DNA of 64,000 nucleotides. Source: Hyphomonadaceae bacterium. Its GTDB lineage: Bacteria > Pseudomonadota > Alphaproteobacteria > Caulobacterales > Aquidulcibacteraceae. How positions within the stretch are numbered: the first letter of the stretch is position 1; the number at the start of each line of letters is the position of its first letter. Below, piece after piece: positions 10,084-57,392 of the stretch. The stretch spans positions 124,001-188,000 of the forward strand of contig WRPI01000004.1 of assembly GCA_009773395.1 (NCBI GenBank), in the 5' to 3' direction. A program made the position numbers and the translations under genes. The notes under the pieces are model-generated. The model ran no database searches. It saw only the letters and a list, made by a program, of their open reading frames with translations, and was not told the DNA's origin.

Positions 10084-10247
10084 TAGAGCGTTGGATGTCC
10101 AAGATGAATCGTTTTGCCGCGCTCTTTTGCACCATTTTTGGCAACAAATATTTGGCTAATACTCCAGTATTAACCGCATATTTGTCACCAAAACTGGCAC
10201 AAAATTGCTGCGACAAATTCGCTTCATCTTGAACATCCAACGCTCTA
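10084..10247 (-). repeat. R1 long-hairpin element, copy a
   Basis: 164-nt imperfect palindrome with termini TAGAGCG and CGCTCTA. Its two arms, each about 80 nt, pair along the whole length around an apical TAATAC-TGGA-GTATTA hairpin. Read on the minus strand it aligns without major gaps to copy b at 56081-56244. Most differences between the arms are T against C or G against A, which leave G-U pairs in a minus-strand transcript. It fills the gap between the crotonase gene and exoD. No gene inside is credible. Could be a palindromic mobile element or a structured RNA. Confidence 0.85.
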
Positions 10248-14258: not shown

Positions 14259-14480
14259 TTGCTTTGGAACGGTCTTAGGGTCAGGTTTGCCCTAAGCCCA
14301 TTCGGTAATTATCCCTATGCACCCTAGGTTTTTGTCAAGGCCCGCAGCCGCTTCGCGGCCTTGCAATGCGCGAGGCCTTGACAAAAACCTAGGGCGCGCC
14401 ACAAACTCGGTGAATGGTTTATGGTTAGACAAGTCTAGCCATAAACCATTCCAAAGCCACTTAATCTCTCTTTCCCACAG
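14259..14480 (+). repeat. R3 three-stem element, copy c
   Basis: 222-nt structured repeat, same orientation as copy d at 36852-37060. Three stems: CTTAGGG/CCCTAAG (14274-14280 with 14290-14296), a perfect 21-bp inverted repeat (14322-14342 with 14374-14394) whose loop holds a GC-rich inner hairpin, and a 19-nt stem (14412-14430 with 14433-14451) with one T-G pair and a 2-nt loop. It begins 40 nt after the nadD stop. Much of the stem sequence is shared with copy d, while the base of the second stem differs but stays complementary. Function unknown. Confidence 0.85.
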
Positions 14481-19762: not shown

Positions 19763-20080
19763 TTTGCACCTATCATGATTAAATCAACAGGATTCTTTTG
19801 GCATCGTTCGGTGAATGAGGAGTTAATTTTCTATGGTTTGCAACCTAAACCAAGCCTTGCAGGTGGTGGAAAAGCCTTTAATTTCGAGGTCACTGCAGAA
19901 ATTATCACTAAAACATAATCGAAAAATCAAATTAAATCAATGCTATAAAACAATTGTCACATTTAATTATTTGTTGACCATAAGGATTCACAATATTTTA
20001 GTCGTGCTGCACTATTATTGTTTTTGGATAAGCGGAAAAGTGATGAATACCGCATCCTTGTATGCAATTAGGAGTTCAAA
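19763..20080. promoter_or_regulatory. Divergent regulatory region between the TadE arm and the flp pilins
   Basis: 318 nt, strongly AT-rich. A TTGACC at 19974-19979 is followed at promoter distance by AT-rich -10 candidates toward the pilin genes. No gene supported. The last 10 nt before the first pilin (GGAGTTCAAA) recur before the second pilin copy, so the ribosome-binding site was duplicated with the gene. Confidence 0.4.
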
Positions 20081-20233
20081 ATGAAAAATTTAATTAAACG
20101 TTTTAATAAAAATGAAGCTGGTGCAACTGCAATTGAGTATGGCTTGATCGCTGCACTTATTGCTGTAGTTCTAATTACCTCACTTTCGCAACTGCTGTTG
20201 GTACTCGCTAGTTTTAGGCGAAGTCCTAAATAA
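20081..20233 (+). pseudogene. Flp pilin copy 1, frameshifted by internal deletion
   Basis: The first 35 codons encode an intact Flp prepilin start (basic leader, cleavage at G/ATAIEYG with Glu+5, then GLIAALIAVVLITSL). Directly after CACTT (20181-20185) about 40 nt are missing compared with the intact copy 3; the sequence resumes at the last codons (ACTGCTGTTGGTACTCGCTAG) in the wrong frame. The open frame then runs into unrelated residues to TAA 20231. A terminator follows at 20241. It may still make a membrane peptide that can be cleaved, but it lacks the pilin C-terminus. Confidence 0.8.
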
Positions 20234-20240
20234 TCAACAA

Positions 20241-20275
20241 AGCCGAGTTTGCCTAAGCAACTCGGCTTTTTTTTT
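20241..20275 (+). terminator. Intrinsic terminator after flp copy 1
   Basis: AGCCGAGTT and AACTCGGCT form a 9-bp stem around a 9-nt loop and are followed by nine T. It separates copy 1 from copies 2 and 3, so the first copy has its own transcript. Confidence 0.9.
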
Positions 20276-20399
20276 GGTAAAACGCTAAATAACAAAATAA
20301 ATTGGCTCGATTCACCTGATATTAGTAAATTGAAGTTAAATTGGCGAGGATTGTTAGGAAAAATCTTTCAACAATTTTATAAATGGCTGGGAGTTCAAA

Positions 20400-20575
20400 A
20401 TGAAGAATTTAATTAAACGTTTTAATAAAAATGAAGCTGGTGCAACTGCAATTGAGTATGGCTTGATCGCTGCACTTATTGCTGTAGTTCTAATTACCTC
20501 ACTTCACTTGGTACTTTGGGCAACAACATGTCTTCACGCTTTACCACAATTGGTACTGCTATCGGCACACGTTAA
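20400..20575 (+). pseudogene. Flp pilin copy 2, frameshifted by a 5-nt tandem duplication
   Basis: The first 105 nt are identical to copy 1 except for one base, including the ribosome-binding region. CACTT is present twice in tandem (20500-20509). Removing one unit restores a complete pilin ending GTLGNNMSSRFTTIGTAIGTR with TAA at 20573-20575. As it stands, the frame continues to 20582 with unrelated residues. All the pilin's C-terminal codons are intact, so the defect is recent or reversible by slipped-strand mispairing. Confidence 0.8.
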
Positions 20576-20610
20576 TATTTAATCTAAAAATAAAGATAGG
20601 CAAGAAGACA

Positions 20611-20781
20611 ATGAAAAAATTGTTGAAATCACTTAATAAAAATGAGCGTGGCGCAACCGCAATTGAATATGGCCTAATTGCCGCTCTTATTGCAGTTGTC
20701 CTTATTACCTCGCTTGGTACATTAGGTAACAATATGAAAACTCGTTTTACAACTATTGGTACTGCCGTCGGCACTCGCTAA
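20611..20781 (+). CDS. flp: Flp-type pilin, intact copy 3
   Basis: 56-aa Flp/PilA prepilin, the major subunit of the Tad pilus. Leader MKKLLKSLNKNERG, then cleavage before ATAIEYG with the conserved Glu and Tyr, a hydrophobic helix to about residue 35 and a short C-terminal tail GTLGNNMKTRFTTIGTAVGTR. It differs from copies 1 and 2 at many silent sites, so it is the older, stable gene. Exported after processing by the CpaA peptidase encoded downstream. Followed by a strong terminator. Confidence 0.9.
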   Translation: MKKLLKSLNKNERGATAIEYGLIAALIAVVLITSLGTLGNNMKTRFTTIGTAVGTR

Positions 20782-36734: not shown

Positions 36735-37108
36735 GCCAAGGGATGTTCAAGTAGAACCGCTTAAAGCGGATTGTGTTTGGTTTTTACGCTTTAAGAAAAT
36801 GTTATGCTAATGCGACACATTAGCGGTTGTGTTGATATTGCTTAGAAGAAATTGCTTAGGAATGGTCTAAGGGCAGGTTTGCCTTGAGCCCATTCGGTTA
36901 TTGTCCTTCTGCGCCTTAGTTTTTGTCAAGGCCCTTGCCTTCGGGCGCAAAGCGCGGCCTTGACAAAAACTAAGGCGCAGACACACTCGATGAATGGTTT
37001 TGGTTAGACAAGTCTAGCCATAAACCATTCCAAAGCCACTTAATCTTTCTTTCTCAAACAATCCGCAAAATGTAAATATTTGATGCGACTTGAACGTCCA
37101 ATGCCCTA
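36732..37108 (+). repeat. Possible R1-like ends enclosing the R3 copy d
   Basis: The left end starts at the pheA stop codon (36732) and carries GGATGTTCAAGT at 36741-36752; the right end (37085-37108) carries ACTTGAACGTCC followed by AATGCCCTA. The two are inverted repeats with one T-G pair at the same position as in the R1 copies. TAG-to-GGATG spacing equals that of R1 copy a. The R1 core is not recognisable between them; R3 copy d lies inside. Either a decayed or composite R1, or chance similarity of short arms. Confidence 0.4.
36852..37060 (+). repeat. R3 three-stem element, copy d
   Basis: 209 nt, aligned along its length with copy c (14259-14480) in the same orientation. It has a perfect 25-bp inverted repeat (36909-36933 with 36956-36980) whose base sequence differs from copy c but remains fully paired, an inner C(TTCG)G hairpin, and a third stem (36992-37009 with 37012-37030). 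Located between pheA and the convergent nudC. No open frame is supported inside. Confidence 0.85.
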
Positions 37109-56080: not shown

Positions 56081-56244
56081 TAGCGCGTCGAACGTTCAAG
56101 TTGCAAAGAATTTGCCGCAGCAATTTTGGGTGAGTTTTGGTGGCAAATACGCAGCTAATACTGGGGTATTTGCCAAGTATTTGGTGCCGAAAATCGCACA
56201 AAAGGGCGCGGCAAAACTATGCAACTTGAGCGTTCGAAGCGCTA
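56081..56244 (+). repeat. R1 long-hairpin element, copy b
   Basis: 164 nt with ends TAGCGCG and GCGCTA, paired along its length. The terminal stem, e.g. TCGAACG and TTCAAGTTGCA, differs in sequence from copy a but keeps complementarity, with the same T-G pair. The core (TTTGCCGC and GCGGCAAA arms, apical AATAC-TGGG-GTATT) is shared with copy a on the opposite genomic strand. The last three bases (56242-56244, CTA) form the TAG stop codon of the minus-strand kinase-like gene. Confidence 0.85.
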
Positions 56245-57270
56245 TTTCGCGCCCGCGGCCACTGCCTGTAGCCAAGCATGGTGCGCCAATTCATCGAACC
56301 TCTCGACCATTTTCGCAGCATCTTTATTGGCTGCATTCCCGCGAATAAGGCGACCCTTTATTCCGTGCAAAATTGCCGCCAGCCGAAACATATTGAAGGC
56401 GACGTAGAAGCTAATATTCTCAATATTTTGTCGGCCTGTCCTTCGCAAATATGCATCAATTGATTGTTGTTCCGTCGGCAGCCCAAAGGCCGAATAATCA
56501 ATTCCTTTTACACTCGAAGGCCAGCCTTGCGGCATATGATATGCCATTAAATGATAAGTGAAATCCGCCAAGGGGTTGCCCAATGTTGATAATTCCCAAT
56601 CCAATACAGCAATAATCCGCGGCTCAGTCGGGTGAAAAACCATATTATCGGAGCGATAATCGCCATGAATGATTGTGGTCTCATCAAACGTGGGTATGTT
56701 TTGCGGCAGCCATGCAATAAGCCGATCCATATCGGGGTTTCGCCCCGCATCTTCATCGGCCAAATATTGGCGCGTCCATAATTTGATTTGCCGTTCAACA
56801 AATTGGCCTTCCTTGCCATAATCGCCAAGGCCAATTGCTTTATAGCCTATGCCGTGAAGCCGCGCCAAAACTTGGTTCATCGCATCAAAATAGGCAAAGC
56901 GCTCGGATTGGGGAATTTCGGCAAAACTTTGGTTCCAAAATATCCGCCCTTCAACCATTTCCATAACATAAAACATTGAGCCAATAACATTATCATCATC
57001 GCAAATGCCATAGGTTTGCGGCACTGGGAAACCAGTCTTTCCCAAAGCGCTAATTATGCGATATTCGCGATCTACAGAATGCGCACCCGGCAGCAAAGTC
57101 CCCATTGGTTTGCGCCGCAAAACATAGTTTTTGTTTGGAGTAGAAATTTTGAAAGTAGGGTTGGATTGCCCCCCTGCGAACTTGGAAATCTCAATCGGAC
57201 CCGCAAATCCGTCAATATTTGCAGTCATCCATTGACTTAAGGTCACCTCGTTCAAAACATTCGAATTCAT
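56242..57270 (-). CDS. APH-fold phosphotransferase (ACAD10/FadE36-like)
   Basis: 342-aa protein of the aminoglycoside-phosphotransferase/choline kinase fold, close to the kinase domain found with acyl-CoA dehydrogenases in ACAD10/11. Motifs: FAGGQSNPTFKI (P-loop), YVLRRKPMG (Lys), catalytic IHGDYRSDNM and metal-binding VLDWELSTLGNPLADF. ATG 57270 (MNSNVLNE) is better than a start 19 codons upstream. Divergent from an acyl-CoA dehydrogenase gene, in agreement with that link. The stop codon is supplied by the end of R1 copy b, so the C-terminus may be altered. Confidence 0.88.
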   Translation of the reverse strand: MNSNVLNEVTLSQWMTANIDGFAGPIEISKFAGGQSNPTFKISTPNKNYVLRRKPMGTLLPGAHSVDREYRIISALGKTGFPVPQTYGICDDDNVIGSMFYVMEMVEGRIFWNQSFAEIPQSERFAYFDAMNQVLARLHGIGYKAIGLGDYGKEGQFVERQIKLWTRQYLADEDAGRNPDMDRLIAWLPQNIPTFDETTIIHGDYRSDNMVFHPTEPRIIAVLDWELSTLGNPLADFTYHLMAYHMPQGWPSSVKGIDYSAFGLPTEQQSIDAYLRRTGRQNIENISFYVAFNMFRLAAILHGIKGRLIRGNAANKDAAKMVERFDELAHHAWLQAVAAGAK

Positions 57271-57392
57271 TGATTCTGATTTGGATTGAGTCACTAAAAC
57301 ACCCAGACAAAGTAATTTAATACGCACAAGTTTGATTTGACACTAAGTTCTGCGATGTGGCAAGTTTGAAATACAAAGTGATGGGGAAAACA

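Follow-up and report, generated by a model that had tools for sequence, protein, structure and literature searches.

The window analysed here is a 64,000-nt stretch of DNA from the genome of a Hyphomonadaceae bacterium (2.63 Mb in 17 contigs, 99.86% complete). A preliminary description of the window had claimed two related hairpins on opposite strands, and both are present as claimed; aligned in inverted orientation, they match over 170 nt with 79% identity. Copy 1 occupies 10084–10247 (164 nt), with its better-folding strand, called the sense strand below, on the minus strand (covariance model hit G000:C8:134084-134247, where G000 is the window's own genome). Copy 2 occupies 56081–56244 (164 nt), with the sense strand on the plus strand (hit G000:C8:180081-180244). 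In copy 1 the terminal inverted repeat consists of the sense 3′ arm at 10084–10108 (minus strand), which pairs with the sense 5′ arm at 10223–10247 (minus strand; TAGAGCGTTGGATGTTCAAGATGAA). The former resembles the TAGAGC.. ends of a group of IS630 elements, and its outer TA is presumably one copy of a target duplication. The predicted folds close with an apical tetraloop, TGGA at 10163–10166 (minus) in copy 1 and TGGG at 56162–56165 (plus) in copy 2. At the edge of copy 2, the TAG at 56242–56244 (minus) is the stop codon of an APH-family gene at 56242–57327 on the minus strand, as seen from the list of open reading frames (ORFs), the Pfam APH assignment, and the survey of gene ends described below.

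The folding energy of copy 1 is −78.9 kcal/mol on the plus strand (z −12.1) and −101 kcal/mol on the minus strand (z −18.9), and that of copy 2 is −75.6 kcal/mol on the minus strand (z −11.5) and −91.4 kcal/mol on the plus strand. Both copies, on both strands, have z between −11.5 and −18.9, as a long stable stem-loop does, and none of 200 shuffles folded as well on the strand read in the preliminary description (−78.9 and −75.6 kcal/mol), so that the end-to-end folding of each segment stands. The compensatory differences reported between the two outer stems are also real in the sequence. The internal unpaired spots reported with them are so only in part, since A–C oppositions on the strand then chosen are G–U pairs on the better-folding one; the strand choice is corrected to minus for 10084–10247 and plus for 56081–56244.

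The window holds other repeats. A second family of about 200 bp is found at 14276–14477 and 36868–37056, and also at G000:C7:343183-343265; it has a central long hairpin (..CCTAGGTTTTTGTCAAGGCC..) with a smaller one at its flank, and between copies the arms of the long hairpin show matched differences. Adjoining this family, 37082–37108 appears by eye to be a degenerate end fragment of the 164-nt element (GATGCGACTTGAACGTCCAATGCCCTA). A 115-nt direct repeat is present in three copies at 20071–20715.

A genome search with a covariance model, which the preliminary description had called for, located the element at 35 distinct places in its own genome, with E no higher than 1.5e-9 and often with both strands scoring, and there are short end fragments in addition to these. 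The length is exactly 164 nt in 24 of the 28 copies taken first, and later ones are mostly 162–164 nt; two shortened copies have 148 and 131 nt. Terminal TA..TA is found in 21 of the 24 full copies, and the remaining three differ at one end base. Pairwise identity among 31 aligned copies ranges from 97% down to 49%. Three copies carry a 42-nt insert (L046 and L047 at element position 63, L048 at position 118), which is identical in two copies belonging to different subfamilies and, at up to 3 mismatches, is absent from the rest of the genome. The element is small and multi-copy (164 nt, 35 places), and it encodes no transposase. The orientation of most of these copies was assigned by sequence likeness, and that of the more diverged ones by the model, which had been built in the orientation of the preliminary description.

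Covariation was examined in an alignment of 31 copies in the sense orientation, 30 from the own genome and one from a congener (G001), with five own copies that have deletions or inserts excluded. In this alignment, 93.9% of the cells are paired. Changes on both sides were seen in 52 of the 72 pairs, amounting to 229 cells; shuffles gave 59.8, and none of 500 was as high. When the partner was slid by 1 to 3 columns, only 18–28 pairs showed changes on both sides. If the covariation were confined to the outer ends, a need for both of them to suit one transposase could account for it. The inner stem is therefore informative: taken by itself, away from the terminal repeats, it shows both-side change in 31 of 45 pairs (105 cells against 26.2). 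This confirms that the covariation runs over the entire stem and is far from chance, and with it the earlier claim of a fold conserved through compensatory change. Some sites that are not Watson–Crick paired are also conserved: GC opposite AA at columns 72–73/96–97, in 27 and 30 of the 31 copies, and G opposite A at columns 55/114, in 26 of the 31.

The two strands of the element are not equivalent. The same strand, the sense strand, is the more stable in all 36 copies folded (35 own and one of G001) and also in two distant relatives, L067 from G001 and L145 from G080, giving 38 of 38. The two relatives were retrieved by a structure model of the sense strand; the orientation of L145 was checked by eye, and its 3′ arm, GCAAAAGAACAAG, matches the 3′ arm of the copy L038. 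Were the palindrome strand-neutral, single transitions in its Watson–Crick pairs should yield as many G–U as A–C oppositions on the sense strand. A tree of the copies instead has 63 changes from majority Watson–Crick pairs to G–U and 14 to A–C. By mutation type, C>T exceeds G>A (27 vs 6) and A>G exceeds T>C (31 vs 8); both C>T and A>G favour the sense strand, so that the asymmetry is not a single mutational bias. A strand-neutral self-alignment of each copy gave G–U 81 and A–C 24 in 12 lineages that we picked as representatives. G–U was in excess in 11 of the 12 and equal to A–C in the other, and among all 33 copies of 150–165 nt it was in excess in 32 and equal in one. Such counts are not independent, because the copies are related and may also recombine. 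Pair columns give 32 vs 13 (p 0.007); singletons give 18 vs 8 (p 0.08), and singletons of the main subfamilies 13 vs 9 (p 0.52), neither of which is significant.

The distribution of changes over the tree is also uneven. Pair-breaking single changes make up 50 of 153 on terminal branches and 7 of 75 on internal ones (p 8e-5), or 60 of 168 and 16 of 85 when two-step changes are included (p 0.006). This is as if folding mattered while the copies spread and was relaxed later, and weak purifying selection would give the same pattern. The G–U excess on one strand, weaker by some counts, is likewise a hint that the spread of the element involves a folded single strand. G–T wobble pairs occur in DNA as well, and therefore RNA and single-stranded DNA are indistinguishable in these counts.

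Could the palindrome be kept by copying of DNA from one arm to the other, through template switching or quasipalindrome correction, and not by selection on the fold? Blocks of adjacent changes that appear in both arms, such as GTTGGATG vs GCCCAATG with matching partners, are what arm copying would leave, and double changes from one Watson–Crick pair to another outnumber single steps to G–U on the tree, 118 vs 62, in a count whose pairs were defined on one copy's sense strand and which therefore leans towards G–U. However, arm copying predicts neither the excess of G–U over A–C on one strand nor the recurrence of the same internal non-Watson–Crick sites across subfamilies, as with the GC/AA columns above, and we consider it unlikely.

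The junctions left by the element were reconstructed by excising 35 copies in silico so that one TA remained. With a crude ORF caller, 7 junctions fall in a stop codon, 14 are intergenic, and 14 lie inside ORFs, 12 of these within 50 nt of the ORF start or stop. The same crude caller places 394 of the remaining TAs in these regions in stop codons and 3,805 between genes; compared with them, the junctions favour stop codons over intergenic sites with odds of 4.8 (p 0.002). Among 36 copies, with open stretches of at least 110 codons taken as genes, the edge of the element is the exact stop codon at 13 sides of 12 copies, and the gene runs along the sense strand at 5 of these sides and opposed to it at 8. 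The relatives L067 and L145 likewise adjoin an ORF stop codon exactly. The target matches YTAR in 19 of 35 cases, whereas the share among all TAs of the sampled regions, with coding TAs included, is 22% (p 3e-5).

One empty site is available for comparison. In G001, an orthologous enzyme ends ..EPWLIEAII-TAA and overlaps a convergent ORF by 4 nt, and its counterpart in the own genome ends ..EPWLIEAMI, with a TAG stop supplied by the element. In this one case compared, insertion at the stop codon has left the neighbouring protein whole. Queries with joined flanks, for two junctions in four congeners, gave usable matches for one junction, covering one flank and not spanning the junction. From the single between-species empty site, in which the DNA match ends short of the junction, we infer that a TA is duplicated at the target. 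Element orientation is unbiased: 19 of 35 copies are oriented with the G-rich strand, and 13 of 35 with the majority gene strand. We also considered insertion into single-stranded DNA of the lagging strand and rejected it on the lack of bias against GC skew (19 of 35), the skew itself being weak.

The preliminary description had likened the hairpins to Rickettsia palindromic elements (RPE). The likeness holds for size and for the end-to-end hairpin, and among 27 copies of 164 nt, 11 have a frame that is open from end to end on the sense strand and 14 have one on the other, the rest being stopped. A coding role, considered on these frames, was set aside. However, the element is placed between genes or near ORF ends, even the 14 junctions inside ORFs lying mostly close to a start or stop by the crude caller; no copy is shown fused in frame within a conserved protein; and the ends match those of the IS630 group. 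Membership in the RPE families is therefore extremely improbable, and the earlier comparison stands for size and shape alone.

The distribution of the element among relatives is patchy. Of its congeners, G001 has two full but diverged copies, G003 a partial match (E 2e-4), and G002 a doubtful one (0.09), and G004 gave no match at E 1. Four of 60 genomes of the family have matches at E 0.01 or better, including a 95-nt hairpin in G011 (L128), which folds at −65 kcal/mol and has an element-like apex (AATATCTGGATATT). In the order, 5 of 398 genomes have matches with E no higher than 1e-5. These are the own genome, G001, G080, and two in which the match is a perfect 48-nt hairpin and the relation is doubtful; whenever more than 40 genomes were searched, the filters were stricter, and weak matches are lost by them. 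The G080 relative, L145, belongs to another family of the order; it is full length at 163 nt, is 38–50% identical to the 13 copies compared, and its sense strand folds at −89.2 and the opposite strand at −62.7. The two 48-nt hairpins (L146 in G152 and L147 in G200, from another family of the order) have perfect 22-bp stems and end TAGAGCC/GGCTCTA; they are perhaps smaller elements with similar ends. Carriage by phages or plasmids was considered and rejected. A blastn search with copy 1 against phage and plasmid collections gave no match at E 0.01. A 15-nt core pattern occurs in 29 viral contigs, and a model scan of all 29 yielded a single match, L106, which is 101 nt long, AT-rich, and weak (E 8e-4) and which we judged to be chance. 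A 23-nt core pattern had no match in a collection of genome contigs, and a protein scan of that kind gave one Pseudomonas hit at 44%. For an acyl-CoA dehydrogenase of the window, the top plasmid hits are from Sphingomonas (70%) and Novosphingobium (65%), which makes an alphaproteobacterial host likely.

These data bear on whether the hairpin is a structured RNA of benefit to the host, such as a terminator, an mRNA stabiliser, or an sRNA, that has multiplied in the genome. The strong structure, the covariation, and the many copies at gene 3′ ends would fit such an RNA. It is nevertheless very unlikely, since full-length copies number 35 in the own genome, two in G001, and none in the three other congeners (weak or partial matches aside), and the sides at which the element supplies a stop have mixed orientation to the gene, 5 the same and 8 opposite. 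Furthermore, a consensus scan found no promoter-like sites in the two element regions of the window. A terminator or other regulatory role for the neighbouring genes was rejected as the main reading on the same mixed orientation and on the sharp difference in copy number between congeners. No Rfam family reaches the gathering score in the whole 64-kb window, and a search by E-value at 8 loci gave 4 matches, all below the gathering score, 3 of them being microRNA hairpin models that lie over the element. Searches of open-licence PMC papers did not bring up the element. Within that open-licence literature the term 'undescribed palindromic element' used earlier is apt, given the many dispersed copies, the TA ends, the strong covariation, and the lack of an Rfam match at gathering score.

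The ends of the element are similar to those of certain insertion sequences. Two IS630-type (DDE_3) elements, L053 from the same order and L130 from the same family, end TAGCGC/TAGAGC... The ends of L053 were noticed first, and relatives of its transposase were then taken from named plasmids (8 of the 30 hits listed). Among 19 IS630 loci, 7 have matching end pairs 1045–1056 bp apart, with 13 of the 14 ends beginning TAG[AC]GC and one TAGAGT; 4 have other end pairs and 8 gave none by the search used, as did 3 further loci. When the 14 ends were compared with 72 element ends, the median identity was 13–17 of 27, reaching at least 14 for 13 of the 14. As a control, 36 of 20,000 TA-starting 27-mers of the own genome reach 14 with the elements masked, and 65 of 20,000 do so with element and IS ends unmasked; the four IS630 elements with other ends have medians of 5–12 of 27. 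The likeness is confined to the outer ~27 nt, and L145 (TAGGGC..), the oldest relative, deviates within that stretch too. No DDE_3 gene was found in the own genome or in its four congeners; for the own genome, this means that the mover is gone or unrecognised, and the element is assigned to IS630/Tc1-mariner by its ends and its target. Y1 transposase (PF01797) and reverse transcriptase (PF00078, RVT_1), the latter expected for a retroelement or retron product, also gave no matches in the own genome at the thresholds used, in searches that were positive in 5 and 3 of 14 control genomes, respectively.

The strand asymmetry could mean that the element moves as a single strand, with the sense strand, as single-stranded DNA or RNA, folding end to end and the hairpin being the moving form, as proposed for REPINs. 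A hairpin single strand is the moving form in IS200/IS605-type elements. The G–U bias in 11 of the 12 chosen lineages (one equal), the fact that C>T and A>G both favour the sense strand, and the concentration of pair-breaking changes on terminal branches all speak for it. Pairing is also kept through compensatory change in REPIN hairpins, according to passages of PMC3116915, a likeness to our element; REPINs, however, go with RAYT (Y1) transposases, and neither a Y1 nor an RVT_1 gene was found in the own genome. Furthermore, orientation is unbiased, the presumed TA duplication and the IS630-like ends suit a transposase acting on double-stranded DNA, and the kinship of the copies reduces the asymmetry to the column and singleton counts given above. 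Movement as a single strand is rather unlikely.

We consider it quite probable that the element is a new MITE family: non-autonomous, 162–164 nt, fully palindromic, inserting at TA, and moved in trans by an IS630/Tc1-mariner-type transposase. The preliminary description had made its proposal depend on further copies and significant covariation, both of which were found, the covariation being strong, and on the absence of a known IS or MITE that would account for the sequence, where relation to IS630 elements and MITEs does explain much of the element. In the proposed mechanism, the transposase would bind both matching ends, excise the element, and paste it into another TA, which would be duplicated. 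As no such transposase is now detected in the own genome, its supply in trans would lie in the past. The covariation of the outermost stem could follow from both ends fitting one transposase. The inner-stem covariation and the one-strand G–U bias need something more, and we think that there was selection for the sense strand to fold during spread. The family is amplified in its own species. Against an IS630-type MITE, the proposed mover is unseen where the copies are, and cut-and-paste of double-stranded DNA by itself demands neither an 80-bp palindrome nor a preferred strand.

A hybrid of the two modes is possible, though doubtful. An element with IS630-like ends would then depend for its spread on one strand, as RNA or single-stranded DNA, folding into a hairpin of fixed length (163–164 nt) with set internal loops. 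It would lie between cut-and-paste MITEs and single-strand hairpin elements, and its fold would have been kept since the divergence of two families of one order, or since a transfer, while most paired positions changed. Why are bacterial MITEs often end-to-end palindromes, and is the fold itself selected? The family described here bears on this general question: with 31 alignable copies and deep relatives, it keeps its fold beyond the transposase-binding ends and more so on one strand, which makes a test with compensated and uncompensated mutants possible. The strand asymmetry is the part of the finding that merits experiment, and the TAGAGC-ended IS630 group provides a candidate transposase partner.

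The MITE proposed here would add a new family to a known kind, that of RUP, ERIC, and NEMIS, and is not a new kind, because bacterial stem-loop MITEs with TA ends are already well described; passages of PMC2229807 and PMC10969869 give 100–200 bp, TA ends, and long stem-loops. ISY100, a member of the IS630 family, transposes into TA and duplicates it, according to part of PMC2170065, and a title cited within that paper names a preference of IS630 for CTAG. The IS630-group elements of Alphaproteobacteria (Bosea, Microvirga, Azospirillum, Martelella; G015, G028) share with our element a TA target and ends that are mostly TAGAGC(A/G)(T/C)CGGAY.., but they are about 1.05 kb long and encode a transposase, whereas the element encodes none. 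Another alphaproteobacterial MITE, with IS1182 ends, is reported in PMC11578231.

The QMITE1 and QMITE2 families of Coxiella resemble the element, on the description in parts of PMC5896051, in that each family has about 50 copies in a single genome and a long palindrome, with some copies over gene 3′ ends; by the same description they are set apart by other sizes and by direct repeats of 2–3 and 7–11 nt, and some QMITE copies are expressed as sRNAs. In pneumococcus, MITEs are over-represented between convergent genes, as stated in an excerpt of PMC3049150. ERIC and NEMIS/Correia, as characterised in passages of PMC2229807, are TA-ended, about 107–155 bp, and mostly intergenic, with stable stem-loops, a likeness of type; the 9-mer TGCAACTTG that occurs, by eye, in one E. 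coli ERIC copy at a similar distance from the end is taken as coincidence. RUP of Streptococcus pneumoniae, 107 bp long and proposed to be moved by IS630-Spn1, is described in the same passages of PMC2229807 as having TA ends, a terminal inverted repeat in common with an IS630 element, an intergenic location, and a long stem-loop, and by this description it is like our element. Our element differs in being a covarying palindrome over its whole 164 nt and in having no IS630 detected in its host genome.
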